Positions 7,331-31,688 of a DNA stretch of 64,000 bases are shown one piece after another. Location of the stretch: positions 561,001 to 625,000 of the forward strand of contig NZ_CP005083.1 of the NCBI RefSeq assembly GCF_001563265.1, written 5' to 3'. The notes beneath the pieces were generated by a model. It was not told the DNA's origin. It saw only the letters and a program-made list of their open reading frames with translations, and searched no databases. The translations under genes were made by a program, and so were the position numbers. Source of the stretch: Sphingobium sp. TKS (GTDB lineage Bacteria > Pseudomonadota > Alphaproteobacteria > Sphingomonadales > Sphingomonadaceae). Positions within the stretch are counted from its first letter, which is position 1. Every line of letters starts with the position of its first letter.

Positions 7331-8500
7331 TCAACCACCACATGCTGCCAACCCTTGTCCCAGTCCGACAATGAGATCCTGCTCGGCCTCTATGCCGACA
7401 GACAACCGCAGCAGATTATCGCTGATCCCGGCAAGAGCACGCGCCTCGGCGCCCATGTCGGCATGGGTCATGGTTGCCGGGTGGGCGACAAGGCTTTCGA
7501 CCCCACCCAGCGATTCCGCGAGCGTGAAGCAACCCACCGCGGCGATGAAGCACTTCACGGCCTCGATCCCACCGACCAGTTCGAAGCTCAGCATCGCGCC
7601 GAAGCCGCGCTGCTGGCGGCTCGCCACGGCATGGCCCGCGTGCGAGGGCAGCCCCGGATAATGGACCTTCGCTACTGCTGCATGGGATTCGAGATAGTGC
7701 GCAACGGCCATTGCGTTGGCCTGCTGCCACTCCATTCGCGGGAACAGCGTACGCAATCCGCGCAGGGTCAGCCAGGCGTCGAATGGCGCGCCAGTACTGC
7801 CCACGACGTTAGCCCAATGGCGCAGCGCCTCGACCTGCACGGCATCGGCCGCGACAACGGCGCCGCCGATCACATCGGAATGGCCGTTCAGGTATTTCGT
7901 GGTGGAGTGGATGACGTAATCGGCCCCCAGCGCAAGCGGCTGCTGGATGGCCGGCGAAAGAAACGTGTTGTCGACCGCCACCTCGGCTTGCACCTCGTGT
8001 GCCATGGTACAGATTGACCGGATGTCGACGATCCGCATCAGGGGGTTGCTGGGCGTTTCGACGAGCACCAGTCTCGGCCGCTCCCGAAGTGCCGACGCGA
8101 AAGCCCCGGCGTCAGCCTGATCGACAAGGCGAAGGCCGATCTGGCCAAGCTCGGCGCGGGCCTTGAGCAGGCGGATCGTGCCGCCATAGCAGTCGTGCGG
8201 GGCCACGACCTGCGCGCCGGCGGGCAGGCGGCTGACGAGGAGATCGACCGCCGCCATTCCACTCGCAGTGATTACCGCGCCTGCCCCACCCTCGAGCTTG
8301 GCGATAGCCTCCGCAAGGAGATCCCGCGTCGGGTTGCCGGCGCGTCCATAGTCGTAGGCTCGCGGCTGCTCAAATCCGGCAAATTCGTAGGTCGTAGAAA
8401 GATAGAGTGGCGGCGCGACCGCTCCAAACGCTGGATCACTGGCGACCCCGAACGCGGCGGCAATCGTCTCAGGGCAGCTATCGGCCTTGTCGTCAGTCAT
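7331..8500 (-). CDS. metB: Cystathionine gamma-synthase / O-acylhomoserine sulfhydrylase family PLP enzyme
   Basis: A 389-residue Cys/Met-metabolism PLP enzyme. It has the AYDYGRAGNPT phosphate-binding segment, SGMAA, VDNTFLSP and the Schiff-base lysine K202 in HSTTKYLNGHSD. It joins an activated homoserine with cysteine or sulfide in methionine synthesis. It overlaps the end of cysI by 8 bases, so sulfide made by CysJI could feed this step directly. Family members differ in the sulfur donor, so metB versus metZ/metY cannot be settled here. Confidence 0.85.
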   Translation of the reverse strand: MTDDKADSCPETIAAAFGVASDPAFGAVAPPLYLSTTYEFAGFEQPRAYDYGRAGNPTRDLLAEAIAKLEGGAGAVITASGMAAVDLLVSRLPAGAQVVAPHDCYGGTIRLLKARAELGQIGLRLVDQADAGAFASALRERPRLVLVETPSNPLMRIVDIRSICTMAHEVQAEVAVDNTFLSPAIQQPLALGADYVIHSTTKYLNGHSDVIGGAVVAADAVQVEALRHWANVVGSTGAPFDAWLTLRGLRTLFPRMEWQQANAMAVAHYLESHAAVAKVHYPGLPSHAGHAVASRQQRGFGAMLSFELVGGIEAVKCFIAAVGCFTLAESLGGVESLVAHPATMTHADMGAEARALAGISDNLLRLSVGIEAEQDLIVGLGQGLAACGG

Positions 8501-10205: not shown

Positions 10206-10215
10206 GATCAGTCCT

Positions 10216-12009
10216 TCAATAGACGTCGCGCTGGTAGCGGTGATCGGCCTGGAGCGAGCGGACATAGTCCTCGGCTGCCTCGCATCCTGTGCGCGCTTCG
10301 CTCGCCACGATCTCGACTAGCGCCGCATGGACATCGGGAGCCAGATGAGCAGCATCGCCGCAGACATAGACGTGCGCGCCGTCCTCCAGCCACGCGAAGA
10401 TGTCACGAGCGCGCTCGCGCATTCGGTGCTGGACATAGACCTTCTCCTGCCCATCGCGCGAAAAGGCGACATCCATCCGGCCAAGCGTGCCATCCTTCAG
10501 CCAGGCCTGCCATTCGGTCTGGTAGAGAAAATCGGTGCGGAAATTGCGTTCGCCCAAGAACAGCCAGCTCTGGCCCGCGGCTCCCCTCGCCTCGCGCTCC
10601 TGCAGAAAGGCGCGATAGGGCGCGACACCCGTGCCTGCTCCAATCATGATGATCGGGACATCGTCTGCAGGCAGACGGAAATGCGGATTGGCCTGGACAT
10701 AGATCGGCAGGACAGTGTCGGGGTCGGCGCGGTCGGCCAGAAGCCCGGAAGCCACCCCGCTGCGCTGCTCCCCGTGCAGCGCGTAGCGCACGGGCGCCAC
10801 CGTCAGATGTGCTTCGTCAGGCGCTGCCGACAAACTCGATGCGAGCGAATAGAGCCGCGGCTGCAAGGGGCGCAGTGCCGACACCAGGCCTTGCGGCATG
10901 ACTGCGCCAACAGGAAACCGGCGGACGATATCGACAATATGATGCGTCCGCAGGAATACCGCGCGTTCGCCCGGCCTGTCCGCATCCTGCAACTGCCTGA
11001 GCGCAGTTGCCTCGCTCAACATGGCCCAGTAGTCGAGAAAGCGCGGGGTTGCGGCCGTGATTTCAAAGCGCCGGGTCAGCGCCTCGCCTAGAGTCAGGGT
11101 CTGCCCCTTGATCTCCAATGCAGCGTCGGGGGGCAGGGATAGCGCGCCGAGCAGCGCGGCGACCACTGCCGGATCGTTCTCGGCGGCGATGCCGAGCGCA
11201 TCGCCGGGTTCGTAAGCGAGCGCGGAGCCGGCGAGCGAGAATTCAACGTGGCGGGTTTCCTTGGTCGATCCGCGCCCGACGATGGCGATGTTCTCGATTA
11301 CCGCGGCAGGAAACGGATTGCGCTTGTCGTGCCTGGCAGCGGCGATAGCGCTGCCGGGCAGGACCGCGGCGGGTATCGCTCCTTGCGGGGCCACAGCGGC
11401 AATCTGCGCGATGACGGCCTGCGTCCACGCGGCGGCGGCATCCTCGTAATCGACATCGCAATCGACCCGGTCGCTGATCCGCCGCGCGCCCAGTTCCTCT
11501 AACCGCCGATCGAGCCGTTTGCCCGCCTGGCAGTAGTGTTCGTAGGTGGAATCGCCAAGCGCCAGCACGGCAAAACGCAGGCCCGGCAGCTTCGGTGCCT
11601 TGCGGCCCTCGACGAATTCGAAGAAGCCCGCCGCCGGCTGCGGCGGGTCGCCTTCGCCGTAAGTGCTGACAACGATCAGCAGGTCTTCCTCGTGCACCAG
11701 TTGCCGCACCTTGTAGTCGGCCATGTCCACCGCCGCAGCCGCCAGCCCCCGCGCAAGCGCAGCCGCCTCGGCGGCCCTCGCCACGTCGGCTGCATTGCCT
11801 GTCTCGGTCCCATAGAGGATCGTAAGCGAACGCGACGCCGGCCCAGGACCAGTCCCGCTCGCCGCCGCGGCAGGAAGCACCGCGCCAAGGCCGGCGAAGT
11901 AGCCGCTGAGCCATTGCGCCTGCGGCGGCGCCAGGCCGGCCGCCAATGCCTGGACCAACTGCCATTGTCTGGCGGCCAAGACCGCACCGGGCACTTCATT
12001 TACCGCCAT
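10216..12009 (-). CDS. cysJ: Sulfite reductase (NADPH) flavoprotein alpha subunit
   Basis: A 597-residue diflavin reductase. The N-terminal flavodoxin domain shows ILYGTETGNA, STYGEGDPP and LALGDSTYEHYC. A linker leads to the FAD/NADPH module with RLYSLASS, MIGAGTGVAPYRAF and the C-terminal DVY that stacks on FAD. It passes NADPH electrons to CysI. It is the first gene of the leftward cysJ-cysI-metB operon. The leader (12010-12177) carries a 9-5-9 palindrome that may be a LysR-type operator. Confidence 0.94.
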   Translation of the reverse strand: MAVNEVPGAVLAARQWQLVQALAAGLAPPQAQWLSGYFAGLGAVLPAAAASGTGPGPASRSLTILYGTETGNAADVARAAEAAALARGLAAAAVDMADYKVRQLVHEEDLLIVVSTYGEGDPPQPAAGFFEFVEGRKAPKLPGLRFAVLALGDSTYEHYCQAGKRLDRRLEELGARRISDRVDCDVDYEDAAAAWTQAVIAQIAAVAPQGAIPAAVLPGSAIAAARHDKRNPFPAAVIENIAIVGRGSTKETRHVEFSLAGSALAYEPGDALGIAAENDPAVVAALLGALSLPPDAALEIKGQTLTLGEALTRRFEITAATPRFLDYWAMLSEATALRQLQDADRPGERAVFLRTHHIVDIVRRFPVGAVMPQGLVSALRPLQPRLYSLASSLSAAPDEAHLTVAPVRYALHGEQRSGVASGLLADRADPDTVLPIYVQANPHFRLPADDVPIIMIGAGTGVAPYRAFLQEREARGAAGQSWLFLGERNFRTDFLYQTEWQAWLKDGTLGRMDVAFSRDGQEKVYVQHRMRERARDIFAWLEDGAHVYVCGDAAHLAPDVHAALVEIVASEARTGCEAAEDYVRSLQADHRYQRDVY

Positions 12010-17134: not shown

Positions 17135-17599
17135 TTGGCCCATGTTGGCATCGTGCATCTCAGCCTGCAAACCGATTACGGCCTGCGCATCCTCATGCTG
17201 CTCGCCTCAGCCGACCGGCAAATGTCGGTCGATGAGATCGCACGCAGCTATGGCATCTCGCGCAATCATCTGGCCAAGGTGGCGCAGCGCCTGCAGCAAT
17301 CGGGCTACGTCGACACGGCTCGCGGGCGCAGCGGCGGCTTGCGCCTGGCCGTTCCGGCAAGAGATCTGAACGTTGGAACCATCGTCAGGGATCTCGAAAA
17401 CCTCGAAACCTTCGTCGAATGCATGTCGCCGGCGCGGAACATGTGCCCTGCGTTCGGCGTCTGCGGCCTCCAGAGTGCCCTGGGGCTGGCCCTTGGCGAC
17501 TTCCTTAAGCGACTGGATAGCTACACCGTCGCCGACCTCGTGCCTGACACTGCCTGGTTCAACGAACAGCTCAGCCGGAACCTTCCGGCCACAGACTGA
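17135..17599 (+). CDS. nsrR: Rrf2-family regulator, NsrR-like NO sensor
   Basis: A 154-residue Rrf2 protein: wHTH with SLQTDYGLRILMLL and YGISRNHLAKVAQRL, then three cysteines C96, C104 and C110 in ECMSPARNMCPAFGVCGLQ. This three-Cys layout is that of NsrR, which binds an Fe-S cluster and loses DNA binding on reaction with NO. A GTG at 17153 (VHLSLQTDYG) may be the true start. It lies next to a multicopper oxidase-cytochromes-nirK operon, as in Nitrosomonas, and a palindrome sits before that operon. Confidence 0.85.
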   Translation: MAHVGIVHLSLQTDYGLRILMLLASADRQMSVDEIARSYGISRNHLAKVAQRLQQSGYVDTARGRSGGLRLAVPARDLNVGTIVRDLENLETFVECMSPARNMCPAFGVCGLQSALGLALGDFLKRLDSYTVADLVPDTAWFNEQLSRNLPATD

Positions 17600-17695
17600 C
17601 GCCGATTAGCCAGCCTGACGGGCAATCAAGCAAAATTATTACACTAAAAAAACAACATTTTTCACTTTCCACTACGCACAATCCGCCCATAAATG

Positions 17696-17712
17696 AGGTA
17701 TTAAACATACCT
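17696..17712. promoter_or_regulatory. Candidate NsrR operator
   Basis: AGGTAT-TAAAC-ATACCT, a perfect 6-5-6 palindrome in an A/T-rich leader, ends 17 bases before the multicopper oxidase start. A/T-rich palindromes containing GTATT/ATAC-type half sites resemble known NsrR boxes. Binding there would block the promoter or ribosome loading. No full FNR box (TTGAT-N4-ATCAA) was found in the same leader. Confidence 0.55.
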
Positions 17713-17729
17713 ATTTAAGGGGCGGGGAC

Positions 17730-18815
17730 ATGCCAAAGCTTACCAGACGCGATGCGGTTCTGACCAGCCTGGCGGCGGCGGGCGCGCTTCCCGTTCTGAG
17801 TTCGGCCTCTGCGTCGGCCGCCAGCGCCCCCTCGACATCGACAAGCACAGGCCGCGCTTCCCACAAGTTCGAAATGAACATCGAGGACACGCGGATCACG
17901 CTGGTCGGCAACCAGACGTTCCACACCTTCGCCTTCGCCGGCCAGGTTCCCGCCCCCCTGTTCCACGTCGGCGAAGGCGACCTTGTCGAAGTCACCGTGA
18001 ACAACCTCACCACCCTGCCTCATTCGATTCACTGGCACGGCATTCTCCAACGCGGCACCTGGCAGATGGACGGCGTGCCCGACATGACCCAACTGGGCAT
18101 CCAGCCCGGCGACAGCTTTACCTATAAGTTCGTCGCCGAGCCGGCCGGAACGATGTGGTATCACTGCCATGTCAACGTAAATGAACACGTCGCCACCCGC
18201 GGTATGTGGGGGCCATTCATTATCGACCGAAAGCGCCCCACGCCAATCGAGCGCGAAATCACCGGCGACTACATCATGATGTTCTCCGAGTGGGCATCGG
18301 CCTGGGCGGACAAGCCTGGGCAGGGAGGCGTGCCGGGCGATGTCTTCGACTTTTTCACCATCAACGGGAAATCGTTCCCCGAAACGCAGCCACTCCGGGT
18401 GAAGGAAGGCGATGTCCTGCGTCTGCGCCTGTTCGGAGCAGGTGGCGGATTCCATTCGATCCACATCCATGGCCACGTCTTCGAAATCGCCTTCAAGGAC
18501 GGCCATCCGCTGCCAGCGCCAATCAAGGCCGATACCGTGCTGGTCGGTCCCGGAGAACGCTACGACATCATCCTTCGCTGCGACAACCCCGGCCGATGGA
18601 TGATCCATGATCACATCGATCACCACACCATGAACGGCCACACGCCGCACGGCGGGGTGATGACCGTCATCGAATACGACGGCATTCCGCGCGACCAGCC
18701 CTGGTATCACTGGGGCCACAAGCAGTTCGTGCCCGACTTCTACTACGAGCAGAGCCTGAAGAAGCCCCACGGCATCCACACCAACCCGACTTTCAAGGGC
18801 ACCCCGATCACCTGA
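17730..18815 (+). CDS. ncgA: Two-domain multicopper oxidase (NcgA-like)
   Basis: A 361-residue, Tat-exported (TRRDAV, R6-R7) two-domain cupredoxin. Domain 1 has H98/H101/H103 (HSIHWHG), then H145-C146-H147, H153 and M159, giving a type 1 copper site plus trinuclear-site ligands. Domain 2 has H242-H249 (HSIHIHGH) and H293/H295 (HDH), where Asp replaces Cys, so it lacks a type 1 site. Type 1 copper only in domain 1 matches the two-domain oxidases encoded with nirK in ammonia oxidisers. Gene order with two cytochromes and nirK supports this. Substrate unknown. Confidence 0.85.
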   Translation: MPKLTRRDAVLTSLAAAGALPVLSSASASAASAPSTSTSTGRASHKFEMNIEDTRITLVGNQTFHTFAFAGQVPAPLFHVGEGDLVEVTVNNLTTLPHSIHWHGILQRGTWQMDGVPDMTQLGIQPGDSFTYKFVAEPAGTMWYHCHVNVNEHVATRGMWGPFIIDRKRPTPIEREITGDYIMMFSEWASAWADKPGQGGVPGDVFDFFTINGKSFPETQPLRVKEGDVLRLRLFGAGGGFHSIHIHGHVFEIAFKDGHPLPAPIKADTVLVGPGERYDIILRCDNPGRWMIHDHIDHHTMNGHTPHGGVMTVIEYDGIPRDQPWYHWGHKQFVPDFYYEQSLKKPHGIHTNPTFKGTPIT

Positions 18816-18827
18816 GGAGGCGGCACG

Positions 18828-19538
18828 ATGCGCATTCCCCTGTTTCTTGCCGCAGGCGCGACCATTGCCGCCCTGATGTTCTCGGCAAGGCCAGCTCCAG
18901 CGGAGCCGGCTGCCGCAGCGGATGCAGCAAGCGCCATTCCAGCCAGTTGCGCCTCGTGTCATGCGCTGACCAAACCCGACAATCCCACCGTCGAGCGTCT
19001 GTGGAACCGCAAAGGACCGGACCTGTGGTATGCCGGCGACAAATTCAACCGCGACTGGCTGGTGAGCTGGCTGCAGAATCCCACGCCGATACGTCCGGGC
19101 GGCGTGCTGTGGTTCAAGCATGCGAAGCCGGGGAGTCCGCGCGATACGCTGGACACGGCCGCGATCGAGAAACATCCGCCGGTCGATGCCGCTTCTGCTC
19201 CCCGGATCGCCGACGCCTTGTCGCAGCTCAAGAGCGCAGGACTCGTCAATCCCGGCGAGTTCAAGCCCGAGGGCGTCAACCTGACGATGGGCCAGATGTC
19301 CTTTGGCAAGCTGCGCGGCTGCACTTCCTGTCATCAGGACAAGCCCGGCCAGGGCGGCCTGTCCGGCCCCGAACTCTATGACGCGGGCAAGCGGCTGAAG
19401 CCGGACTATGTCCTGGCCTATACCCGCGACCCGCAGCAATTCGACCGCTTCATCTGGATGCCGCGCCTGACGCTGACCGACGCCGACCTCCAGCGTCTCA
19501 CCGGCTATGTCGCCTCACTCGGCAAGGAGGGCAAGTGA
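18828..19538 (+). CDS. ncgB: Diheme c-type cytochrome (NcgB-like)
   Basis: A 236-residue exported protein with two heme motifs: C41-A-S-C44-H45 and C165-T-S-C168-H169. Between them lies a stretch with RLWNRKGPDLWYAG and WLQNPTPIRPGG. It sits 12 bases behind the multicopper oxidase gene, and its stop overlaps the next cytochrome's ATG (TGATG). It probably relays electrons in the periplasm between the respiratory chain and the copper enzymes; this is inferred from context. Confidence 0.85.
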   Translation: MRIPLFLAAGATIAALMFSARPAPAEPAAAADAASAIPASCASCHALTKPDNPTVERLWNRKGPDLWYAGDKFNRDWLVSWLQNPTPIRPGGVLWFKHAKPGSPRDTLDTAAIEKHPPVDAASAPRIADALSQLKSAGLVNPGEFKPEGVNLTMGQMSFGKLRGCTSCHQDKPGQGGLSGPELYDAGKRLKPDYVLAYTRDPQQFDRFIWMPRLTLTDADLQRLTGYVASLGKEGK

Positions 19539-19927
19539 TGGTCCGTTTTGGAATCCTCGCGCCAGCCGTCGCACTGCTCGCAGGCTCGCTGGCGCTTCAC
19601 CAGCCCGCCTCCGCAGGCGCCGAAAGTCCGAAGATCCAGGCGTCCGCCCGGCTCTACGACACCTATTGTGCGCAATGTCACGGCGTCCAGCGCAACGGCA
19701 AGGGCATCAACACGGTCGGGCTTTCGGTGCAACCGCGCGATCACAGCGACACGGTCGCCATGGCCTCGCTGCCACGCGACCAGATGATCCGCGCAATCAC
19801 CGATGGCGGCGCTTCGGTCAACAAATCGGCACTGATGCCATCGTGGTCTTCGGTCCTCACTCACGAACAGATCGAGGACATGGCCGACTACCTCCACTTC
19901 GTCTGCAAATGCGGAGAGGCGAAGTGA
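19538..19927 (+). CDS. ncgC: Monoheme c-type cytochrome (NcgC-like)
   Basis: A 129-residue exported protein with one heme motif, C44-A-Q-C47-H48. Methionines further on (ALMPSW) may be axial ligands. The ATG at 19538 overlaps the diheme gene's stop; the preceding GTG at 19535 is less likely. The C-terminus ends with CKC. It is third in the multicopper oxidase-nirK operon and is the expected small electron carrier to NirK. Confidence 0.85.
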   Translation: MVRFGILAPAVALLAGSLALHQPASAGAESPKIQASARLYDTYCAQCHGVQRNGKGINTVGLSVQPRDHSDTVAMASLPRDQMIRAITDGGASVNKSALMPSWSSVLTHEQIEDMADYLHFVCKCGEAK

Positions 19928-19954
19928 CCCGCTCCATCAACCAGGGGGAACCTT

Positions 19955-20878
19955 ATGCGTAAAACCATGTTACTGGCCGCTTCGGCACTCGCGGCTCTCA
20001 TCGCACAGCCATTGCTTGCGAAAGAGATCAATCTGCGGCTGACCGCCAAGGAGGTGATGCTGCCCATCGACAACAAGGGAACCATGCAGGCATCCTGGAC
20101 CTATGAAGGCCAGATACCGGGACCGGTCCTGCGCGTGACCGAGGGTGACCGCGTTACCATCACGCTGACCAACGATCCCGCCAACAAGAATTCGCACTCG
20201 ATCGATCTGCACGCTGCCCGCGTTGACGTCGTCAAGGACTTCGAAGCGATCAAGCCCGGCGAAACCAAGACTTTCAGTTTCGTCGCCACTTATCCGGGCG
20301 CCTTCTACTACCACTGCGGCTCGGACCCGATGTACCAGCACATTGCGCGCGGCATGTTCGGGGTCATCCTGGTCGATCCGAAGGATTCCAAGGCCTTGCC
20401 CAAGGCCGACCGCGAATATGTGCTCGTTCAGTCGGAAATCTATGCCAACCCGGATGACCTTCACTCGATCATGAAGAGCAACTGGGAGCATGTTGCGTTC
20501 AACGGCATGGCCTTCAAGTATGATCCCGTCCACGATCCGGCGGCCACGCGGATGTTGGTCGCCAGGCCCGGCGAGCGGGTCAGGGTCTATTTCGTCAACG
20601 CCGGCCCGAACGAATATTCGACGCTGCATCCGATTGCAGGCATCTGGGACGCCGTCTATCCCAGCGGCAATCCCAAAAACCGCAAGACCGGGCTGCAGAG
20701 CCTTACCGTCGGACCCGGCGATGGTGCTACTCTCGACATCGTCTCGCCGGTCGCGGGCGCGAATGTGATTGTCGATCACTCCATGTCACATGCCCATACC
20801 GGGGCGATGGCCGTGCTCATGTATTCCGATGACGCGGATCCCAAGATGGGTCGGGGCGACCTCATCCTTGTGCCCTAG
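19955..20878 (+). CDS. nirK: Copper-containing nitrite reductase
   Basis: A 307-residue exported NirK-type protein. Type 1 copper ligands are H81, C121, H129 and M134; type 2 ligands are H86, H120 and a C-terminal His (H279 or H281). The catalytic pair is conserved as D84 (SIDLH) and H225 (STLHPIAG). It reduces nitrite to NO in the periplasm. It lacks any C-terminal cytochrome domain, so electrons must come from separate proteins, plausibly the cytochromes just upstream. The start has a GGGGGAA site. No NO reductase gene is present in this window. Confidence 0.88.
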   Translation: MRKTMLLAASALAALIAQPLLAKEINLRLTAKEVMLPIDNKGTMQASWTYEGQIPGPVLRVTEGDRVTITLTNDPANKNSHSIDLHAARVDVVKDFEAIKPGETKTFSFVATYPGAFYYHCGSDPMYQHIARGMFGVILVDPKDSKALPKADREYVLVQSEIYANPDDLHSIMKSNWEHVAFNGMAFKYDPVHDPAATRMLVARPGERVRVYFVNAGPNEYSTLHPIAGIWDAVYPSGNPKNRKTGLQSLTVGPGDGATLDIVSPVAGANVIVDHSMSHAHTGAMAVLMYSDDADPKMGRGDLILVP

Positions 20879-20921: not shown

Positions 20922-20993
20922 GTGGTTCCCGGGACGACCCCTTGGCTCCTGCCGGGCCGATGAATGCGGCAGGAGCCTCGTCTCGGGAACCAC
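20922..20993. repeat. Long imperfect hairpin between nirK and the TonB receptor gene
   Basis: Outer arms GTGGTTCCCGGGACGA (20922-20937) and TCGTCTCGGGAACCAC (20978-20993) pair with a single mismatch. Inner arms GGCTCCTGCCG (20944-20954) and CGGCAGGAGCC (20967-20977) pair perfectly around a 12-base loop. A six-base bulge sits on the left side. It ends 27 bases before the receptor start, so it lies in the leader RNA of that gene or terminates the nirK transcript. No known riboswitch consensus was recognised. Confidence 0.65.
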
Positions 20994-21019
20994 GACGGAA
21001 ACGACTTGTGAGATCGACG

Positions 21020-23272
21020 ATGAAACGGCCGGACATGACATATGCAATCACTTTGGGATTGCTGGCCCTATCATCGCCAGCCCTGGCCGATAACGAGCCG
21101 GAAGAAAATCGACTGGTCGCTAACTTCCGTCCGACGCCCGGCGACGAAATCCTCGTTATCGGCCAGAAGCACAACGACCGGATCGAAAACGCGCCGTCCA
21201 CGCGCGTCTCCATCGACGAAAGCCGGATAAACGCCACGGTCAACGCCGCAAGCGTCGAAGACACGATCAAGTATCTGCCAAGTCTGGTGGTACGCAAGAG
21301 GCACATCGGCGACAATTTCGCACCCATCGCAACGCGAACATCGGGGCTCGGCGCCAGCGCCCGCAGCCTGATCTACGCCGATGGCGCGCCGCTATCGGCA
21401 CTCATTGCCAACAACAACGGCAGCGGCAGTCCGCGCTGGAACATGGTAACGCCCGAGGAAATCTCGCGGATCGACGTCCTTTACGGCCCCTTTTCCGCTG
21501 CTTATCCGGGAAACAGCATCGGCACGGTCGTCAACATCGTCACACGCATGCCCGATGCGCTGGAGGCGCGGCTGAGCGTACTGAGCAACCTCCAGCGGTT
21601 CGACCAGTACGCCACCAGCCGGACGCTGCCGACATGGCAGGTCGCCGGCTCGATCGGGGACCGCTTCGGACCACTTGCCCTGTTCGCGAGCGCGACGCAC
21701 ACCACCGCCAACAGCCAGCCGCTGGCCTACATCACGGCTGCCAGCGCCCCGGCAGGCGCCACCGGCGCCTTCGACGATCGCAACCGCACCGGCACTCCGA
21801 TCAAGGTGCTCGGCGGCGGCGGGATCGAGCATCACCTTCAGGACAATTTCAAGCTGAAGGCCGCACTCGAACTGAGCCCGGATGTGCGCATCACCTATAT
21901 ATTCGGTCTGTGGCGCGACGACAGCCGAGGCACGGTAAAATCCTACCTGAGCGATGTGACCGGTGCGCCTGTCTACACCAGCGCGTTCTCACCGAACGTC
22001 TATACCCGCGATGCCTTGCATTGGTCGCACGTGGCGACCGTTCATGGCGAAGGAGACCACTTCGACTGGCATCTAGTCGGCACGGTCTATCGCTATGGTC
22101 ACGACATACAACGCACGCCCGGCGGAGCGCTCCCCGCCGCCTTTTCCGGCGGGGGCGGCAACGTCCAGCGGCAGGACGGAACCGGATGGACCACGTTCGA
22201 CGCCAAGGCCGCCTGGCGCTCATCGGACGGTGCACATGTCCTCGGCTTTGGCGGCCACTACGACCGCTACCGGGTCGAAGCCGACCGTTACACCACCGCC
22301 GACTGGACCGGGGATCAGCAGGGCGCGCTCAACCAGTCCTCGCGCGGCAAGACCCGCATGCTGGCGCTCTGGGTGCAGGACGCCTGGACGATCAGACCGG
22401 GCCTGACGCTGACGCTGGGCGGCCGCCATGAATGGTGGCGCGCCTACGAAGGCTACAACTTCTCGGCTACTCCGGCGCTTGTCGTCAATCAGCCGGAGCG
22501 CGCAGCCCAGGGGTTCTCGCCAAAGGCCACGCTCGAGTGGCAGCCTAGGGCGGGTTGGAGCGCAAAACTGTCGTTCGGCCAGGCCTACCGTTTCCCGACA
22601 GTGGGCGAGCTTTATCAGACCGTCACCACGGGCACTGTGCTGAGCGTGCCCAATCCGGACCTCAAGCCCGAGCGCGCGCGATCCGCGGAACTGGCGCTGG
22701 AACACCGCGACGCCCGCGGCACACTGCGCCTGTCGCTGTTCAACGAGGTGGTCGATAATGCCCTGATCGCCCAGAGTGGCCCGCTACCGCCGATCACCGG
22801 TACGTTCAGCTTCGTCCAAAACGTCGATCGCACCCGCGCGCGCGGCATCGAAGTGGCGGTCAACCACCGCGACATCGTGCCGGGAATCGACCTGTCGGGC
22901 AGCGTGACATACACCGACGCCAGGACAGTCAGAGATGCGATCTTTCCTGCCGCGGTCGGCAAGCTGCTGCCCAGCGTCCCACACTGGAAAGCCAGCGCAG
23001 TCGTTACATGGCATGCAAGCAAGGCGATCTCACTGGCCACGGCCGTGAGATATGCCAGCCGTAACTACGCGACGCTCGATAACAGCGATAGTGTCGGCAA
23101 CACCTATCAAGGTTTCTACAGGTATTTCGTCGTCGATGCGCGCGCGCTGTTCCAGGTGTCGGAACATCTCGAATTCGCGGTCGGGGTCGATAACCTCAAT
23201 AATGACAAATACTTCCTCTTTCATCCGTTTCCGCAAAGATCGTTCACCATCGAAGCAACGTGGAAGCTGTGA
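21020..23272 (+). CDS. TonB-dependent outer-membrane receptor
   Basis: A 750-residue receptor starting at ATG 21020 with a signal peptide ending at ALA. The plug domain has [15 protein letters not shown], a [20 protein letters not shown] segment and VVNIVTRMP. The barrel ends in a terminal aromatic-rich strand (FTIEATWKL). The ligand is unknown. Its position between nirK and ALA synthase suggests copper or heme/iron, but no specific binding motif was seen. A long hairpin lies in its leader. Confidence 0.88.
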
Positions 23273-23292
23273 GGAATCAAGGAGGCGTCGAG

Positions 23293-24507
23293 ATGAACTA
23301 CGACCAGATTTTCGACTCGGCGATTGAGCGCCTTCATTCGGAAGGCCGCTACCGGGTCTTCATCGACATCCTGCGCAACAAGGGCGCCTATCCCAACGCG
23401 CGCTGCTTTGCCGGGCACAATGGTCCCAAGCCGATCACGGTGTGGTGCTCGAACGATTATCTCGCCATGGGCCAGCACCCCAAGGTCATCGCCGCGATGG
23501 AGGAAGCGCTCCACAATGTCGGCGCGGGCTCAGGCGGCACGCGCAACATCGGCGGCAACACGCATTATCACATCGAACTGGAAGCCGAACTCGCCGACCT
23601 TCACGGCAAGGACAGCGCGCTGCTGTTCACCTCGGGCTATGTCTCGAACGACGCCACGCTCTCCACCCTCGCCAAGGTCCTGCCGGGCTGCGTGATCTTT
23701 TCCGACGAGCTGAACCACGCCTCGATGATCGCCGGCATCCGCAATTCGGGCGCCGAAAAGAAGGTCTGGCGGCATAACGACGTCGAACATCTCGAACAGC
23801 TGCTGGCGGAAACCGATCCCGCCCTGCCCAAGCTGATCACCTTCGAGAGCGTCTATTCAATGGACGGCGACACCGCGCCGATCCACGCGATCTGCGACCT
23901 GGCCGACAAGTACAACGCCCTCACCTACATCGACGAGGTCCACGCCGTCGGCATGTATGGCGTACACGGCGGCGGCATCTCCGAGCGTGACGAGGCCGCC
24001 GGCCGGGTCACCATCATCGAGGGCACGCTGGGCAAGGCCTTCGGCGTCATGGGCGGCTATATCGCGGCCGACAGCCGGATCATCGACGTGATCCGCTCCT
24101 ACGCGCCCGGCTTCATCTTCACCACCTCGCTCTCGCCGGTGCTGGTCGCCGGCGTGCTCGCATCGGTCCGCCACCTCAAGGCCTCCAGCGTCGAGCGCGA
24201 GGGCCAGCAGGCGGCTGCCGCCTTCCTCAAGGCCAGCTTCGCCGCGGCCGGGCTGCCGGTGATGGACACGGTCACCCACATCGTCCCGCTGATGGTCGGC
24301 GATCCGGTCAAGGCCAAGCGGATCAGCGACATCCTGCTCGCCGAATACGGCGTCTACGTCCAGCCGATCAACTTCCCCACCGTCCCGCGCGGGACCGAGC
24401 GGCTGCGCTTCACCCCCGGCCCCTCGCACACCGAGGAGATGATGGTGGAGCTAACCAAGGCGCTGGTCGAAATCTGGGAACGCCTGGAGATGAAACAGGC
24501 CGCGTGA
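23293..24507 (+). CDS. hemA: 5-aminolevulinate synthase
   Basis: A 404-residue PLP enzyme of the alpha-oxoamine synthase family, starting [14 protein letters not shown] behind a GGAGG site. It has [27 protein letters not shown] and the PLP lysine in [13 protein letters not shown], all typical of alphaproteobacterial ALA synthase. It condenses glycine with succinyl-CoA for heme. The gene is unusually rich in C/G third positions compared with its neighbours. It lies within a heme-protein cluster, so it may be an extra copy serving cytochrome production. Confidence 0.95.
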
Positions 24508-24548: not shown

Positions 24549-25109
24549 ATGACGGACAATGCCGCGATCGAGATGCTCGGCAGGGAGCATGAGATTATCC
24601 TGAGGGTCGTTCTCGGCCTGCATGGTCTTGCGCGGCATCTCCGCGAAGGCCGCAGTACCGATGCGGATCTGCTGCTTGAAGCAGTCATTTTCATGCGTGA
24701 ATTCGCCGACAAATGCCATCATGCCAAGGAAGAGGAAATCCTGTTTCCCGCAATGGTCGCGCACGGCGTCCCCCTGCACGGCTGCCCGCTGGATGCGCTG
24801 CTGCATGAACACAAGGAAGCAAGGCATCTCGTCGGACAGCTGGAGGAGGCTGCCAAGGCTTATCACGCAGGTGAGCCAGGCTCCGAAGGGAAGGTCATAG
24901 CGGCCATCGAGCCCATCGAGCGCCTTTATCCGGAACACATCTGGAAAGAGGACCAGATGGTCTTTCCGATGGTCGAACGATTGGTGCCTGCCGAAGCCCG
25001 CAGGCAGATATTTGCGGAGTTTGAGGAAGTGGAGGCGCGCAATGCTCCTGGAACCCACGAGCGCTTCCATCACTTTGCAGCCCGCCTGTCGACCGCTGCC
25101 GGGCAATGA
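24549..25109 (+). CDS. Hemerythrin HHE domain protein
   Basis: A 186-residue protein with the HHE iron-site pattern: EHEIILRV, CHHAKEEEILFP, HEHKEARHL and EHIWKEDQMVFP supply the His and Glu ligands of a di-iron site. Such proteins bind O2 or NO or repair iron centres. It follows hemA by 41 bases with a GGAG site and precedes the cbb3 operon. An NO- or O2-related role fits the neighbourhood but is inferred. Confidence 0.88.
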   Translation: MTDNAAIEMLGREHEIILRVVLGLHGLARHLREGRSTDADLLLEAVIFMREFADKCHHAKEEEILFPAMVAHGVPLHGCPLDALLHEHKEARHLVGQLEEAAKAYHAGEPGSEGKVIAAIEPIERLYPEHIWKEDQMVFPMVERLVPAEARRQIFAEFEEVEARNAPGTHERFHHFAARLSTAAGQ

Positions 25110-25296: not shown

Positions 25297-25359
25297 AAGC
25301 GGTATGTCAAATGCATCTTCTGTGATAATTCCTGGCATGTCCTTTGAGGGAGTTCGCGC

Positions 25360-27006
25360 GTGATCTCAGGTCTCACCTTAAGCGAACGCCAGGCGGCGAT
25401 TGCCATTCTGACCGTGGGAATGATGATTGGTATCGTCATGGCTGCGGCGGCGGCGATGCGCGCCGATGCCATGGAAATTCACGGCTATATCGTAGCGCTG
25501 TACAGCCTTGGCCTCCTCGCCGTGGTCCTGCGCGGATATTTTGCGCCGGAACCGGACGATACGCGACTGGCCTCATATTACGATGACCCGAGCAAGGCCG
25601 GGATCATCCTGTCCATGGCGTGGGCCGTGTTCGGGATGTTCATGGGCGTCTGGGTGGCATTGTTGCTGGCCTTTCCCGACATGACCTTCGACACGGCATG
25701 GGCCAGCTTCGGGCGCATGCGACCGGTCCACACCACCGGCGTGATCTTCGGATTTGGCGGCAATGCGCTGATCGCCACCTCCTACCATGTCATGCAGCGC
25801 ACATCGCGCGCGCGGATGCCGGGCCAGTTCAGCCCGTGGTTCGTTCTGCTGGGCTACAACCTGTTCTGCATCCTTGCGGTGTCGGGCTATTTCATGGGCA
25901 TTACCCAGTCGAAGGAATATGCCGAACCGGAATGGTATGCCGATATCTGGCTGGTCGTGGTCTGGGTGACCTACCTCGTGCTCTACCTGCGAACGCTGGC
26001 GCGCCGCAAGGAGCCGCATATCTACGTCGCCAACTGGTATTACCTGGCGTTCATTCTCGTCGTTGCGATCCTGCACATCGTCAACAACCTGGCGGTGCCG
26101 GTGTCCTTTGCCGGCGCCAAGAGCTATTCGGCGTTCTCTGGCGTGCAGGACGCGATGACGCAGTGGTGGTATGGCCACAACGCGGTCGCCTTCTTCCTCA
26201 CCGCCGGTTTCCTCGGCATGATGTACTATTACCTGCCCAAGCGGGCTGGGCGGCCGATCTATTCCTACCGCATGTCGATCATCGGCTTCTGGGGGATCAC
26301 CTTCTTCTACATGTGGGCGGGGTCGCACCACCTGCACTACACGGCGCTGCCGCAGTGGGTGCAGACGCTGGGCATGACCTTCTCGCTGATGCTGCTTATC
26401 CCTTCGTGGATCGCGGCGGCCAATGCGCTGCTGACGCTGAACGGCGCGTGGGACAAGGTCCGCGACGACGCCACGCTGCGCTTCATGATGATGGCCGCCG
26501 TTTTCTATGGGCTGTCGACATTCGAGGGATCGTTCATGGCAATCCGTCCGGTCAATTCGCTATCGCATTATACTGACTGGACGATCGGCCATGTCCATTC
26601 GGGCGCGCTGGGCTGGGTCGCCATGATCACCTTCGGCTCGATCTATGCGCTGGTGCCATGGTTGTGGAAGCGTGAGCGGATGCATTCCCCGGCGCTGGTC
26701 GAGGTGCACTTCTGGCTCGCCCTGGCGGGAACGCTGATCTACGTCTTTGCCATGTGGAACTCGGGCGTTCTGCAGGGCCTGATGTGGCGCACCTACAATG
26801 ACAGCGGCACGCTGACCTACTCCTTCCTCGATACGGTCGTGGCGATGCATCCCTACTACATCGCGCGGGCCATCGGCGGGCTGTTCTTCCTGACCGGCGC
26901 GTTGGTGGGCAGCTACAACATCTGGATGACGATCCGCCAACCGACGTCCGCCGTTGCGCCGCCGGGAGATGAGCCCGTCCTCGCCCACCTCCAGCCTGCG
27001 GAGTAA
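25360..27006 (+). CDS. ccoN: cbb3-type cytochrome c oxidase subunit I
   Basis: A 548-residue multi-helix heme-copper oxidase subunit starting at GTG behind GAGGGAG. Conserved histidines are in [36 protein letters not shown] and [14 protein letters not shown], covering low-spin heme, high-spin heme and CuB. It is longer than typical CcoN (about 480 residues) because of extra hydrophobic helices at the N-terminus. It is the catalytic subunit of the high-affinity oxidase and the first gene of ccoNOQP. Confidence 0.95.
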
Positions 27007-27012
27007 ACGGCG

Positions 27013-27738
27013 ATGTTCGGAATCCACTACCGGCTTGAACGCAAGTCTATCACACTCGTGCTCGCGATCATGGTCGTCGCAAGCATTGGCGGCCTGATCG
27101 AGATCGCCCCCCTGTTCACCATCGACGAAACGGTGGAGACCGATCCGGACATGCGGGTCTACACGCCGCTCGAACTGGCCGGGCGCAACATCTACATCCG
27201 CGAAGGCTGCTATGCCTGCCATTCGCAGATGATCCGCACGCTGCAGGACGACGTGGATCGGTATGGCCATTATTCGCTGGCGGTGGAGTCCAAGTACGAC
27301 CACCCGATGCTGTGGGGCTCAAAGCGCACCGGTCCCGATCTCGCCCGCGTCGGGGGCAAGTATTCCGACGCCTGGCAGGTGGCGCACCTCACCAACCCGC
27401 GCAGCGTGGTTCCGCAGTCCGTCATGCCGAAATACGGCTGGCTTAATACCACAGAATTGCAGACCACCTATCTTGGCGAGCACCTGAAAGCGCAGCGCGA
27501 CGTAGGTGTGCCCTATACCGACGCGATGATCGCGAATGCGCCAGCCGACGCTGTCGCCCAGGCCTCGCCCGATGGCGACACGCAGGGGCTGATGAAGCGC
27601 TATGGCGCGGCGACGCAGGTCCGCTCATTCGATGGCGACAAGCGCACCGTATCGGAAATGGATGCGCTGGTCGCTTATCTCCAGGTTCTGGGCAAGCTTA
27701 GCAACGCGGCCCAGGCACCCGAACCGGCAGGAAAGTGA
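27013..27738 (+). CDS. ccoO: cbb3-type cytochrome c oxidase subunit II (monoheme)
   Basis: A 241-residue protein with one N-terminal membrane anchor and one heme c motif, C66-Y-A-C69-H70, followed by SQ as in the family. MPKYGWL probably supplies the axial Met. It carries electrons from CcoP to CcoN. Six bases separate it from ccoN. Confidence 0.95.
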   Translation: MFGIHYRLERKSITLVLAIMVVASIGGLIEIAPLFTIDETVETDPDMRVYTPLELAGRNIYIREGCYACHSQMIRTLQDDVDRYGHYSLAVESKYDHPMLWGSKRTGPDLARVGGKYSDAWQVAHLTNPRSVVPQSVMPKYGWLNTTELQTTYLGEHLKAQRDVGVPYTDAMIANAPADAVAQASPDGDTQGLMKRYGAATQVRSFDGDKRTVSEMDALVAYLQVLGKLSNAAQAPEPAGK

Positions 27739-27742
27739 CCCG

Positions 27743-27913
27743 ATGGACATAGCCCATTCCACGCTGGTCGGTTTCTCCAAGTCGTTCGGGCTGGTCTACT
27801 TGCTCGCGATGGCGGCGGTAGCTCTGGCTTACGCCTTGTGGCCTCGGAACCGGGACCGGTTCGACAAGGCAGCCCGGGACATCATCGAGGACGAGGACAA
27901 GCCATGGCTGTAA
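27743..27913 (+). CDS. ccoQ: cbb3 oxidase small subunit CcoQ
   Basis: A 56-residue single-helix protein (FGLVYLLAMAAVALAYALW) with the family's C-terminal RFDKAARDIIEDEDKPW. It starts at ATG 27743, four bases after the ccoO stop, and overlaps ccoP by ten bases. CcoQ stabilises the oxidase complex. Confidence 0.92.
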   Translation: MDIAHSTLVGFSKSFGLVYLLAMAAVALAYALWPRNRDRFDKAARDIIEDEDKPWL

Positions 27914-28785
27914 CCGAACGCGATCCTCACACCGGGCACCAGACAACCGGCCATGAATGGAACGGCATCAAGGAACTGAATACGCCAGTGCCCCGGGCGG
28001 TTTGGTTCTTCCTGATCCTCAGCGCCTTGTTCGCCGTGGGCTACTGGATTCTCATGCCGGCCTGGCCGCTTGGCCGCACTTATACGCACGGCCTGCTTGG
28101 CGTGGATCAACGGACGACCGTGACCCGGATCGTTGAACGGGCCGCGCAAGAACGCAGCGCCTGGACCGGCCGGATCGCCGCGCTCGATTACAACCAGATC
28201 CGCGCCGACCCGGCCTTGATGAAGATCGTCCGGGAAGACGGCCACCGCTTGTTCGGCGACAATTGCGCGGCCTGCCACGGCGTCAATGCCACCGGCGGCA
28301 AGGGCTTTCCCAACCTCACCGACCGGGACTGGCTGTGGGGTGGCAGCCCCGGAACGATCGCGCAGACCATCGCGGTTGGCGTGAACAGCAGCAAGAGCAA
28401 GGATACGCGCGTCAGCCAAATGCTGGCGTTTGGCCGCGATGGCATTCTCGACAACAACGCCGTTCTGGCGGTGACCGATTATGTCCTGTCGCTGTCGGAC
28501 CCGGCCCATGCATTGGGCAGAACCGCGCAATCGGTCGCTGCGGGGCAGGCAGTCTTCGCGGCCAATTGCGTCGCCTGCCACGGGCCGGAGGGACGCGGCA
28601 ACCAGGCGCTGGGCGTCCCCAATCTCACCGATCACACATGGCTTTATGGCGGCGATGCAGAGTCGGTCTATACGTCGGTGTACGGTGGCAGGCAGGGCGA
28701 AATGCCCGCCTGGCAGAACCAGCTCAGTCCGGTCGATCGCAAGATCCTCGTGGTCTATCTCCTCGACAAGGGGGCCGGACGGTGA
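27904..28785 (+). CDS. ccoP: cbb3-type cytochrome c oxidase subunit III (diheme)
   Basis: A 293-residue protein starting at MAVTERDPHTGH. The N-terminal segment EWNGIKELNTPVPRAV and one helix are typical of CcoP. Two heme c motifs are at C121-A-A-C124-H125 and C222-V-A-C225-H226. The longer frame to 27838 runs inside ccoQ and is rejected. It accepts electrons from soluble cytochrome c. Its stop overlaps the next small gene as TGATG. Confidence 0.95.
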   Translation: MAVTERDPHTGHQTTGHEWNGIKELNTPVPRAVWFFLILSALFAVGYWILMPAWPLGRTYTHGLLGVDQRTTVTRIVERAAQERSAWTGRIAALDYNQIRADPALMKIVREDGHRLFGDNCAACHGVNATGGKGFPNLTDRDWLWGGSPGTIAQTIAVGVNSSKSKDTRVSQMLAFGRDGILDNNAVLAVTDYVLSLSDPAHALGRTAQSVAAGQAVFAANCVACHGPEGRGNQALGVPNLTDHTWLYGGDAESVYTSVYGGRQGEMPAWQNQLSPVDRKILVVYLLDKGAGR

Positions 28786-28985: not shown

Positions 28986-29771
28986 ATGATGACCACCATC
29001 CCCCCTATCGTCCCGCCGCTCCCTCGGGTCAGTCCCTATGCCCGCAACCTGCCAGCCAGCAGTGCTGTCGCCTGGCTGCGCGCGGGATGGCACGACCTGA
29101 CGCGCGATCCATGGCCAAGCCTGCTCTACGGCCTGTTCGTGTTCTTGCTGTCCGCCGCGATCATCGTGGGGCTGGTGGTGCTGGAATGGGACTTTGCCAT
29201 TTTCCCGGTGCTTGCCGGCTTTCTCATCCTTGCGCCGGCGCTGGCCATCGGTCTCTACGCCAAGAGCCGCTCGTTGGAGGAAGGTCGACCGGTGTCGCTG
29301 GGGCACATGCTGATGCCTCGGGCGCAGTCGGGCGGCCAGATCCTGTTCACCGGCGCGATGCTGTGCGGGCTGCTGCTGCTGTGGATGCGGGCGGCGGTGC
29401 TGATCTACGCCCTGTTCTTCGGGGTGCGGCCGTTTCCGGGGTTCAACCATATCGTGCAGATGCTGTTCGCCACGCCGACGGGGCTGGCGATGTTGCTGGT
29501 CGGCTCGGCAGTCGGCGGCCTGTTCGCCGCCTTTGCCTTTGCCATCTCGGCCTTTTCGATCCCGATGATGCTCGACCGGCGGCTCGACAGCCTGACTGCG
29601 ATGGGCACGAGCTGGGCGCTGGTCTGGAACAATCTGCCGGCCCTGCTGGTCTGGGGTGCGGTGGTGCTGGCGCTGTTTGTGCTTTCGGTGGCGACCGGGA
29701 TGATCGGCCTGATCATCGTGTTTCCGTTGCTGGGCCATGCGACATGGCATGCCTGGCGCGCGGTTCGCTGA
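28986..29771 (+). CDS. DUF2189 family membrane protein
   Basis: A 261-residue protein with about six hydrophobic helices. The DUF2189 start is recognisable: AWLRAGWHDLTRDPWPSLLYG, with later FSIPMMLDRRLD and WALVWNN. Members are commonly found beside cbb3 oxidase genes in alphaproteobacteria, with unknown function. AGGAGACG precedes the start. It lies between ccoP and ccoS, so it is probably part of the operon. Confidence 0.88.
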   Translation: MMTTIPPIVPPLPRVSPYARNLPASSAVAWLRAGWHDLTRDPWPSLLYGLFVFLLSAAIIVGLVVLEWDFAIFPVLAGFLILAPALAIGLYAKSRSLEEGRPVSLGHMLMPRAQSGGQILFTGAMLCGLLLLWMRAAVLIYALFFGVRPFPGFNHIVQMLFATPTGLAMLLVGSAVGGLFAAFAFAISAFSIPMMLDRRLDSLTAMGTSWALVWNNLPALLVWGAVVLALFVLSVATGMIGLIIVFPLLGHATWHAWRAVR

Positions 29772-30024: not shown

Positions 30025-30495
30025 ATGGCCATGGATGACTTCATGATCGCCCGCGTGATCCACATAGCCTCCATCGTGCTGTGGATCGGCGGCGTCGCCT
30101 TTGTCACCACGGTCGCCATGCCGGCGATCCGGCGCGACACTCTGCCGGATGAGCAGCTCTCGGGATTTCATCGGTTCGAAGGCGGCTTTGCCCGGCAGGC
30201 GCGCGTCTGGGTGGCGCTGGCCGGCCTCAGCGGCTTCTGGATGGTCTGGCGCGCCGGCTTGTGGGAACGGTTCGGCCAACTCCAATTCTGGTGGATGACG
30301 GCTATGGTGGCCGTTTGGACGATGTTTGCCATGATGCTGTTCGTGCTCGAACCGCTCGTCATCCATAAGCGCATGCGCCATTCGTCCACGCCAGCCGCCG
30401 ACTTTCGCCGGATGGAGATCATGCATCGCATTCTGCTGGCGGCCTCGCTGATCACAATCATCGGCGCTGCTGGCGGGAGCCATGGCTTGTGGTAA
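30025..30495 (+). CDS. CopD-like four-helix membrane protein
   Basis: A 156-residue protein with four hydrophobic helices and several in-membrane histidines (VIHIASIVLWIGG, SGFHRFEGGFARQ, MEIMHRILLAAS). The first helix resembles the N-terminus of CopD-like membrane proteins, which often bind heme or copper. It overlaps nnrS by seven bases and follows ccoS. Likely a heme-binding or copper-related membrane protein; not certain. Confidence 0.65.
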   Translation: MAMDDFMIARVIHIASIVLWIGGVAFVTTVAMPAIRRDTLPDEQLSGFHRFEGGFARQARVWVALAGLSGFWMVWRAGLWERFGQLQFWWMTAMVAVWTMFAMMLFVLEPLVIHKRMRHSSTPAADFRRMEIMHRILLAASLITIIGAAGGSHGLW

Positions 30496-31688
30496 AAGCC
30501 CCCGTCGTCCTTGCGACCCCGCACCGGCTGCTGTTTCTCGTCGGCGCGGTCCAGTTCGCCTTGGTCATAATATGGTGGGGCGCAATGCTGTTCGCCCTCG
30601 GCGGGATGGGGCCGCACCTTGAGCAACCCATCCCCGCAAGCCTGCTGCATGCCCCGATCATGTTGTTTCTCGTGCTTCCGGCGTTCTTTTTCGGCTTCCT
30701 CCTCACGGTATTTCCGCGCTGGACGGGCTTTCCTGATTCGGCGCCGATCATCTACGTCCCAGTAGGCCTGGCCTTCCTGCTGGCAGCGATCATGCTGTGG
30801 ACGGGCCTGCTTGCCGCTGTGCCCCTCGCCATTGTCATTGCATTCGGCGCGGCGGCGACAGGCTGGATCTGGGCGCTGGGCTGGATGCTTGGCTGGCTGG
30901 TTCGCGAGTTGCGCGCTGGCCGGTCGCCAACGTGGCACGGCTGGTCGATCTTCGGCGCCGTCTGCGCAGGCTTCGGCTGCCTGATCGGGGTTATCGCGGG
31001 ATTGCGATCGCTGGATGGTATGCTGATCCACGTGTCCAACGTTGCCGGCCTCGCCCTGTTCATCCTCCCGGTCTTCATCACCGTGTGTCACCGCATGGTC
31101 CCGTTCTTCGCAGGCAATGTGGTGACGAACTATTCGCGCTGGAGGCCTTTCTGGGTCCTGGCTGCCTTCTGGATCGCCAGTCTTGCCGAGACTGGCGCCT
31201 ATTACCTTTCCGCTTCTGGCGTGGCTGCGGCATGCAATGCAGTGCTCGCGTGCCTGACCGGCCTCATGCTGTGGAAGTGGTGGCCCGGAAGGCGTGCACC
31301 CGGCTTGCTGTGGGTTCTCATCCTGGGATTTGCCTGGGCGCCTCTTGGCTTCGCCTGGACGGCCTGGTCCGGCCTGTTCGCACCGGAGAGCGCCAGGGGA
31401 GGCATCCACCTGCTCACGATCGGCTTTGCTGGCAGCCTGGTTATCGCCATGGTCACGCGCGTGAGCCAGGGGCATTCGGGCCGGCCACTGGCCATGCCCG
31501 CCCTCGCGTGGTTAGCCTTTGCCCTGGTCCAGGTTTCAACCGTGCTGCGATTGGCTGCGGCGCTGTCCGCTGAAGCTCTCCCCTTGCTGATCCTGTCCGC
31601 CTTCTGCCTCGCGGCAGGCCTATTGCCATGGGCCGTGCGGGCGATGGCGATTTACGTTCAACCTCGCGTGGACGGCAAAGCAGGATGA
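30489..31688 (+). CDS. nnrS: NnrS family protein
   Basis: A 399-residue integral membrane protein with about 12 helices. NnrS features are visible: an N-terminal HRLLFLVGAVQFALV, LLHAPIMLFLVLPAFFFGFL with FPRWTG, VCHRMVPFFAGNVV, and late GGIHLLTIGFAGSLV with MVTRVSQGHSG. NnrS is a heme- and copper-containing protein that protects cells against NO and dinitrosyl-iron damage. It closes the cbb3 cluster and fits with NirK making NO nearby. Confidence 0.92.
   Translation: MVKAPVVLATPHRLLFLVGAVQFALVIIWWGAMLFALGGMGPHLEQPIPASLLHAPIMLFLVLPAFFFGFLLTVFPRWTGFPDSAPIIYVPVGLAFLLAAIMLWTGLLAAVPLAIVIAFGAAATGWIWALGWMLGWLVRELRAGRSPTWHGWSIFGAVCAGFGCLIGVIAGLRSLDGMLIHVSNVAGLALFILPVFITVCHRMVPFFAGNVVTNYSRWRPFWVLAAFWIASLAETGAYYLSASGVAAACNAVLACLTGLMLWKWWPGRRAPGLLWVLILGFAWAPLGFAWTAWSGLFAPESARGGIHLLTIGFAGSLVIAMVTRVSQGHSGRPLAMPALAWLAFALVQVSTVLRLAAALSAEALPLLILSAFCLAAGLLPWAVRAMAIYVQPRVDGKAG

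Follow-up and report, generated by a model that had tools for sequence, protein, structure and literature searches.

Why should a sphingomonad carry a nitrite reductase cluster of the kind known from the ammonia oxidizer Nitrosomonas europaea, and why does this cluster share one gene run with a spare cbb3-type oxidase? The question is raised by a stretch of 64,000 nucleotides from Sphingobium sp. TKS (NZ_CP005083.1, positions 561,001 to 625,000; hereafter, the window), in which five open reading frames (ORFs), all on the + strand, span positions 17135–20878 and encode an Rrf2-family regulator, a multicopper oxidase (MCO), a diheme cytochrome, a monoheme cytochrome, and the nitrite reductase NirK. 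We consider it fairly probable that this is a Sphingobium version of the known ncgABC-nirK type, which has spread among sphingomonads by horizontal transfer and is here wired into an Rrf2-controlled respiratory module related to nitric oxide (NO). On our best reading of the sequence, one NO-sensing switch would turn on both the NO-making NirK and the spare oxidase. The joint proposal, to which we give a little better than an even chance, is that in sphingomonads an NO-sensing Rrf2 repressor and one palindromic operator control ncgABC-nirK together with a dedicated spare cbb3 oxidase, and that the cbb3 module and its Rrf2 came first, with the cluster added by horizontal transfer more than once.

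The cluster begins with ncgA (17730..18815, +), encoding a two-domain MCO, and continues with ncgB (18828..19538, +; a diheme cytochrome c with two CxxCH motifs, PF13442), ncgC (19535..19927, +; a monoheme cytochrome c with one CxxCH motif, PF13442), which overlaps ncgB by 4 bp, and nirK (19955..20878, +), a copper nitrite reductase of the N. europaea type by its PDB match and ligand residues. The best PDB matches are 3g5w for NcgA (E 1.7e-159; runner-up 5.7e-124) and 4kns for NirK (E 1.7e-131; runner-up 5.4e-55). At the N. europaea locus (L045), NcgA and NirK each contain an exact copy of one fragment of the matching PDB chain, and by sequence match the closest solved relatives of the cluster proteins are N. 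europaea proteins. The initial annotation had read the order nsrR, two-domain MCO, diheme cytochrome, monoheme cytochrome, nirK as that of N. europaea ncgABC-nirK, and the ORFs, the PDB matches, and the N. europaea gene order bear this out.

A NirK query of 84,980 species genomes returned 175 loci; the best 80 were analyzed, and the window and the locus of Sphingomonas wittichii RW1 (L111) bring the number of sets to 82. The complete set of four genes is present in 76 of the 80 loci, the other four (L011, L057, L079, and L084) being cut at contig ends, and the window order ncgA-ncgB-ncgC-nirK, on one strand, is that of 74 of the 82 sets (the remaining eight are four rearranged and four cut). 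The initial annotation had named a lack of linkage in relatives as grounds for abandoning its assignment; since the linkage is conserved, these grounds fall away. Hosts of the best 80 loci, as recorded, include Alpha-, Beta-, and Gammaproteobacteria, and Nitrospirota, plus a single acidobacterium and a single verrucomicrobium (Methylacidiphilum), a range that fits the suggestion of an old, wider use. At three loci recorded as Halomonas and Thioalkalivibrio (L066, L068, and L069), the order is nirK-ncgB-ncgC-ncgA.

The residues expected at the metal centers are in place, as had been noted from the letters alone. In NirK, D84 and H225 are identical in all 81 aligned NirKs, as are H81, C121, H129, and M134 (type 1 copper) and H86, H120, and H275 (type 2 copper), which we take to be the ligands from the motifs of copper nitrite reductases. 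The NCBIfam model TIGR02376 gives NirK 188.5 bits, below its cut-off of 296.3, a score that stands without a value from the same model for the N. europaea protein. Domain 1 of NcgA has an HCH motif that includes the type 1 cysteine (residues 145–147); the same place in domain 2 reads HDH (293–295), and the type 1 site is therefore confined to domain 1. Judged by its residues, NcgA is thus a two-domain MCO that combines a trinuclear site with type 1 copper in domain 1, and 14 residues at or around the copper sites, HCH and HDH included, show no variation across all 75 true NcgA rows (the 78 collected rows minus L057, L079, and L084, in which ncgA is cut off by the contig and NirK was picked instead). 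Two CxxCH motifs are found in 78 of 81 collected NcgB rows and one in 82 of 82 NcgC rows.

Upstream of ncgA lies the Rrf2-family gene (17135..17599, +; PF02082, E 2.3e-31), which is listed with a TTG start; judged by the homologs, the in-frame GTG at 17153 is the better fit and probably the true start. Its product has the NsrR traits of Rrf2 family membership and three cysteines, here spaced C-x7-C-x5-C. It scores 110 bits with the NCBIfam NsrR model (cut-off 182) and 108.7 bits with the RirA model, also below cut-off, and because the curated NsrR score is not reached, we file the regulator as NsrR-like only. With this wording, the earlier claim of such a cluster with an NsrR-type regulator in a sphingomonad stands. 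The protein is 83% identical to its counterpart in the nearest relative (L010), 52% to that at L018, and 39–48% to Rrf2 matches at the remaining loci. The Rrf2 regulators at L009, L012, L013, L015, and L111 are divergent and have the motif C-x2-C-x5-C, five residues shorter than that of the window protein. At L137, a second, weaker NsrR-like box (position ∼2719, 14.0 bits) stands just before the Rrf2 gene and hints at self-regulation.

The promoter of ncgA carries a predicted NsrR-type operator, ATGAGGTATTAAACATACCTATT (17693..17715, +; core 17696–17712), 18–34 bp upstream of the gene. The site is an NsrR-type palindrome, three mismatches from GATGTATn5ATACATC. The form AGGTATTAAACATACCT occurs exactly once in the window, upstream of ncgA, and at up to two mismatches there are three sites as against 0.37 in shuffles. 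Across the 6.2 Mb genome, AGGTATn5ATACCT at up to one mismatch is found in two places only, both exact, one before ncgA and the other before a ccoN gene on another contig of this genome (C4); the reversed-pattern control gives five places at the same threshold. Of 75 loci, 34 have a GATGTATn5ATACATC box (up to three mismatches) in the 300 bp ahead of ncgA, against a mean of 0.97 and a maximum of 4 in shuffles. These shuffles, like those used below for the ccoN sites and palindromes, preserve single-base composition only. The scoring model for the box was trained on six sites, one of them the window ncgA site, whose score is therefore not independent; the ccoN sites described next were outside the training set.

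The initial annotation stopped at position 20878, and the same-strand gene run extends past it to 31688. Within this extension lie ccoN (25360..27006, +), encoding cbb3 oxidase subunit I of what we call the module type (TIGR00780, 648 bits), ccoO (27013..27738, +; TIGR00781, 315 bits), and ccoP (27838..28785, +; TIGR00782, 290 bits), all above the model cut-offs, followed by a gene for a DUF2189 membrane protein (28986..29771, +; PF09955, E 5e-36). A second, weaker NsrR-like site, AAGCGGTATGTCAAATGCATCTT (25297..25319, +), stands 41–63 bp upstream of ccoN and scores 20.3 bits, the best among 30 shuffled windows reaching 14.6. The box recurs in all 11 distinct module promoters examined (CcoN at least 81% identical), starting 60–67 bp upstream and with at most four mismatches over 16 fixed positions, the consensus having been taken from the C4 site, itself one of the 11. 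It is found in none of five promoters of a type with 74–75% identical CcoN (two distinct sequences), nor before the third ccoN of the window genome, which is on contig C2 and only 61% identical; the closest approach in these is seven mismatches.

Copies of the module occur near other clusters and away from them. A set of ccoNOP-DUF2189 genes lies near the cluster, on the opposite strand, in Sphingobium indicum BiD32 (L110, L118), RW1 (L111, L119), and Novosphingobium album (L011, L120); BiD32 also has hemA near its cluster, and BiD32 and N. album have nnrS. On C4, the window genome has a second module with genes for an Rrf2 regulator, hemA, nnrS, a heavy-metal P-type ATPase, catalase, and a quinol NO reductase. 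In the C4 segment examined (L108, C4:8001-28000, on a contig of 195 kb), a hemA-nnrS-P-type ATPase-DUF2189-ccoPON copy is seen, along with an NhaA-like antiporter recognized by eye. Accessory ccoNOP-DUF2189 modules with Rrf2 in other sphingomonads have the same module and the same kind of operator as are found downstream of the window cluster; they differ in that five of the seven genus genomes with the boxed type lack a nirK of the window kind. In segments of 19–20 kb around five nirK-less modules, the ccoN box is the top-scoring box, and in four of the five an Rrf2 gene, 41–89% identical to that of C4, is near ccoNOP-DUF2189.

How much of this is already known? In S. wittichii RW1, nirK has been described as closing a cluster of four genes that follows NsrR (Swit_1789-93; Cua & Stein 2014, PMC4123721); the authors pointed out the likeness to Nitrosomonas and Nitrobacter, proposed lateral transfer, and, among 51 sphingomonads, found a complete cluster in only two, both of them S. 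wittichii. Our locus L111 is this cluster, since the nirK primers of PMC4123721 give an exact 742 bp amplicon on it. RW1 shares with the window the four genes and an adjoining Rrf2 regulator, and its NirK is 83% identical; it differs in the divergent Rrf2 with C-x2-C-x5-C, in a nearby module ccoNOP that runs in the opposite direction, in having no hemA match in the stretch examined, and in the lack of NnrS in its genome. According to PMC5080386, the alphaproteobacterium Nitrobacter winogradskyi also has ncgABC-nirK, and in N. europaea nirK and ncgABC confer nitrite tolerance, nirK being harmful without ncgABC; PMC3603346 places the cluster in zetaproteobacteria as well. The novelty that the initial annotation implied for an alphaproteobacterium is therefore not upheld. 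The N. europaea cluster with nsrR has the same gene order (NirK 62% and NcgA 67% identical), but belongs to an ammonia oxidizer, is not sister to the window cluster in trees, and shows no cbb3-module matches in 8 kb flanks. The N. winogradskyi genes are the same and fall in the same alphaproteobacterial tree group, but NirK is 61% identical, an extra gene of ∼237 amino acids stands between rrf2 and ncgA, and no NO reductase (NOR) match was found. The portions examined of the sphingomonad nirK, NsrR, and cbb3 literature (including PMC1274295, PMC6472365, PMC6446978, and PMC4335978) make no mention of an NsrR operator upstream of ccoN. What looks new is the run of the cluster into hemA and a spare ccoNOP with which it apparently shares a predicted operator.

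Among sphingomonads, the distribution of the cluster is patchy and rare. Similar NirKs (at least 71% identity) occur in three of 397 sampled genomes of the family and the cluster in two of 94 genomes of the genus, the window genome being counted in both. Four further family genomes in the same sample have NirKs of other types (33–36% identity), and as a small negative control, no Ncg matches were found in their loci of 3.3–3.8 kb. In two family genomes (L094 and L095), an other-type NirK is followed by hemA (81–88% identical), with no ncg matches in the locus.

Phylogenetic analysis addressed the suggestion of transfer. Quick, midpoint-rooted trees without bootstrap were built for NirK (81 of 82 rows) and for the four proteins together (72 of 82 sets, ten having been left out because one gene or more was too short or fell outside the length limits). 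With the exception of one "Rhizobium" bin, the alphaproteobacterial clusters form one group in both trees (Shimodaira–Hasegawa-like approximate likelihood ratio test, SH-aLRT, 96), within which sphingomonads group with Phenylobacterium and Rhodospirillaceae bins (support 99–100), and Nitrosomonas is placed apart. The excepted locus (L029) carries a Thiobacillus-like cluster that groups inside Thiobacillus and is probably misbinned. In approximately unbiased (AU) tests, for which the groups were named after the tree had been seen so that p-values serve as a guide only, a single clade of the two Sphingobium clusters was rejected (p-AU 4.9e-9), as was, moderately, a single clade of sphingomonads and Nitrosomonas (p-AU 0.015). 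Because the two Sphingobium clusters do not group together and occurrence is patchy, the clusters seem to have moved horizontally among sphingomonads. The claim of transfer thus holds as spread among sphingomonads; as a jump from Nitrosomonas, it is unsupported by the trees and, more weakly, disfavored by the AU test. Plasmid carriage was also considered and set aside, as no plasmid record matched at E 1e-50, a search from which records very near the window genome may have been left out. As to an island border, neither a step in guanine-cytosine content at the cluster nor a tRNA was found, in an analysis that did not include an empty-site search. A short integrase-like ORF (33–611) and an IS701 transposase (33318–34589) flank the region.

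A plainer account is partial denitrification, in which NirK and two quinol NO reductases would respire nitrite to nitrous oxide (N2O) at low oxygen, with NcgB and NcgC as electron carriers, NcgA incidental, and the cbb3 and nnrS genes chance neighbors. The window genome encodes two qNorB-type (quinol) NO reductases and two NnrS proteins, and the conversion of nitrite to N2O is therefore possible in it; no NarG scored over the cut-off in this genome. N2O is formed from nitrite in RW1, in which nitrite also raises nirK mRNA, but there nitrite is consumed in stationary phase only, and the larger part of it does not reappear as N2O (PMC4123721). Of 22 genomes that bear the cluster, 15 have a NOR match (E 1e-60), seven have NarG over the cut-off, and 20 have NnrS; the cluster is thus not bound to full denitrification, and the seven genomes with no NOR match may hold other kinds of NOR that escaped the search. 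NcgA, which this account leaves incidental, is present in each of the 76 loci that no contig end truncates. We regard partial denitrification as an unlikely explanation. A further account is a reversal under air, in which NirK and NcgABC would turn NO into nitrite and pass electrons to NcgA and oxygen. Such an activity was suggested for N. europaea NirK in PMC10999283, and the cluster occurs in three Nitrobacter genomes with no NOR match, but RW1 consumes nitrite (PMC4123721), and of the alternatives considered we find this one the least probable.

Copper offers another account, in which NcgA would be a cuprous oxidase that protects NirK and cbb3, both copper enzymes, and periplasmic copper balance would be the main task of the cluster. 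Copper-related genes do recur across 83 loci, with a CusB-type membrane-fusion protein in 30 and a resistance-nodulation-division (RND) pump in 29 (each family named from one scanned member). The best curated match of NcgA, below cut-off, is copper_res_A, and module copies on C4 and in BiD32 include a heavy-metal P-type ATPase. No such ATPase is among the ORFs listed in the window gene run, however; the recurrent upstream box is of the NsrR type, and the two cytochromes are left without a role. A copper-handling operon therefore appears to us rather improbable, somewhat more so than partial denitrification.

The remaining genes of the run lie on both sides of ccoNOP-DUF2189. Directly 3′ of nirK is a TonB-dependent receptor gene (20942..23272, +; PF00593, PF07715); receptors of the same or a second family, the latter identified by a scan of the L009 member, are also found 3′ of nirK in L009–L013, L016, and L090. 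It is followed by a hemA-type 5-aminolevulinate synthase (23260..24507, +; TIGR01821, 651 bits, above cut-off) and a hemerythrin-domain protein (24549..25109, +; PF01814) with a distant likeness to the RIC/YtfE iron-sulfur repair proteins (TIGR03652, 28.7 bits, far below cut-off). Among 94 genus genomes, the close type of this hemerythrin protein is found in the window genome only, two others having it at 34–35% identity. Beyond the DUF2189 gene are a small protein with no family match (30025..30495, +), which has a 58% identical relative near the NO reductase gene on C4, and an NnrS-family membrane protein (30489..31688, +; PF05940, E 7.6e-57). At L010, the gene order is the same up to the contig end, with 1.8 kb added between the TonB receptor and hemA. 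Elsewhere in the window (7331–12009) are genes for a Cys/Met-metabolism enzyme dependent on pyridoxal phosphate and for sulfite-reductase-like cysI and cysJ, relatives of which lie near the BiD32 cluster (L138).

The genes, their ligand residues and linkage, and the distribution of the operators are direct observations; from them we infer, as follows, how sensing and electron flow would work and what NcgABC and the spare oxidase would do. NsrR-type repressors lose DNA binding once NO attacks their iron-sulfur cluster; NirK makes NO, and cbb3 oxidases are high-affinity heme-copper enzymes. Nitrite or NO would damage the iron-sulfur cluster of the Rrf2 repressor and so free the AGGTATn5ATACCT operator before ncgA. 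NirK would then reduce periplasmic nitrite to NO, with electrons presumably passing from the cytochrome c pool through NcgB and NcgC, and NcgA may drain or oxidize surplus electrons, Cu(I), or NO, sparing the cell the harm done by NirK. The same kind of operator would switch on the spare cbb3 oxidase, for which hemA may supply heme, and NnrS, the hemerythrin protein, and the two quinol NO reductases found at other sites of the genome may serve in NO handling.

Several observations weigh against this reading. The curated models call the window Rrf2 neither NsrR nor RirA, and the protein is unlike the Rrf2 that adjoins most other sphingomonad clusters, being just 37–42% identical to those of BiD32, RW1, Sphingopyxis, and C4. 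At three mismatches, 41 of 75 loci have no box before ncgA, including the nearest relative, L010, and the ccoN boxes of BiD32 and N. album score low (10.4 and 11.6 bits). Palindromes alone (arms 9, gap 5) are not significant in every ccoN promoter: in those of the window and L010 the top score goes to another repeat, at L118 97 of 500 shuffles are equally good, and at L120 no repeat beats the shuffles. We therefore dropped the palindrome by itself as proof at ccoN, and what carries the argument is the position of the site, its rarity across the genome, and its absence from the controls. The module oxidase is found in 13 of 92 nirK-less genus genomes (five of the boxed and eight of the 74–75% type, of which eight the five examined lack the box), so the link between nirK and the module is one-way. 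RW1, with both cluster and module, has no NnrS match in its genome; cco genes of Sphingopyxis granuli TFA decrease under NO, according to PMC6472365; and the part in NO or Cu(I) oxidation assigned to NcgA is guesswork.

If the preferred reading of one shared switch is true, the cell would change to its spare cbb3 oxidase when making or meeting NO. A real shared switch would couple the making of NO to the terminal oxidase used in a group of aerobic degraders, which would bear on their N2O output, and it is this extension to a spare oxidase bearing an Rrf2 box that is worth following. Furthermore, a heterotroph that is independent of ammonia oxidation and carries the cluster beside a spare oxidase, with a clear predicted operator, would offer a simpler test case for the function of NcgABC.

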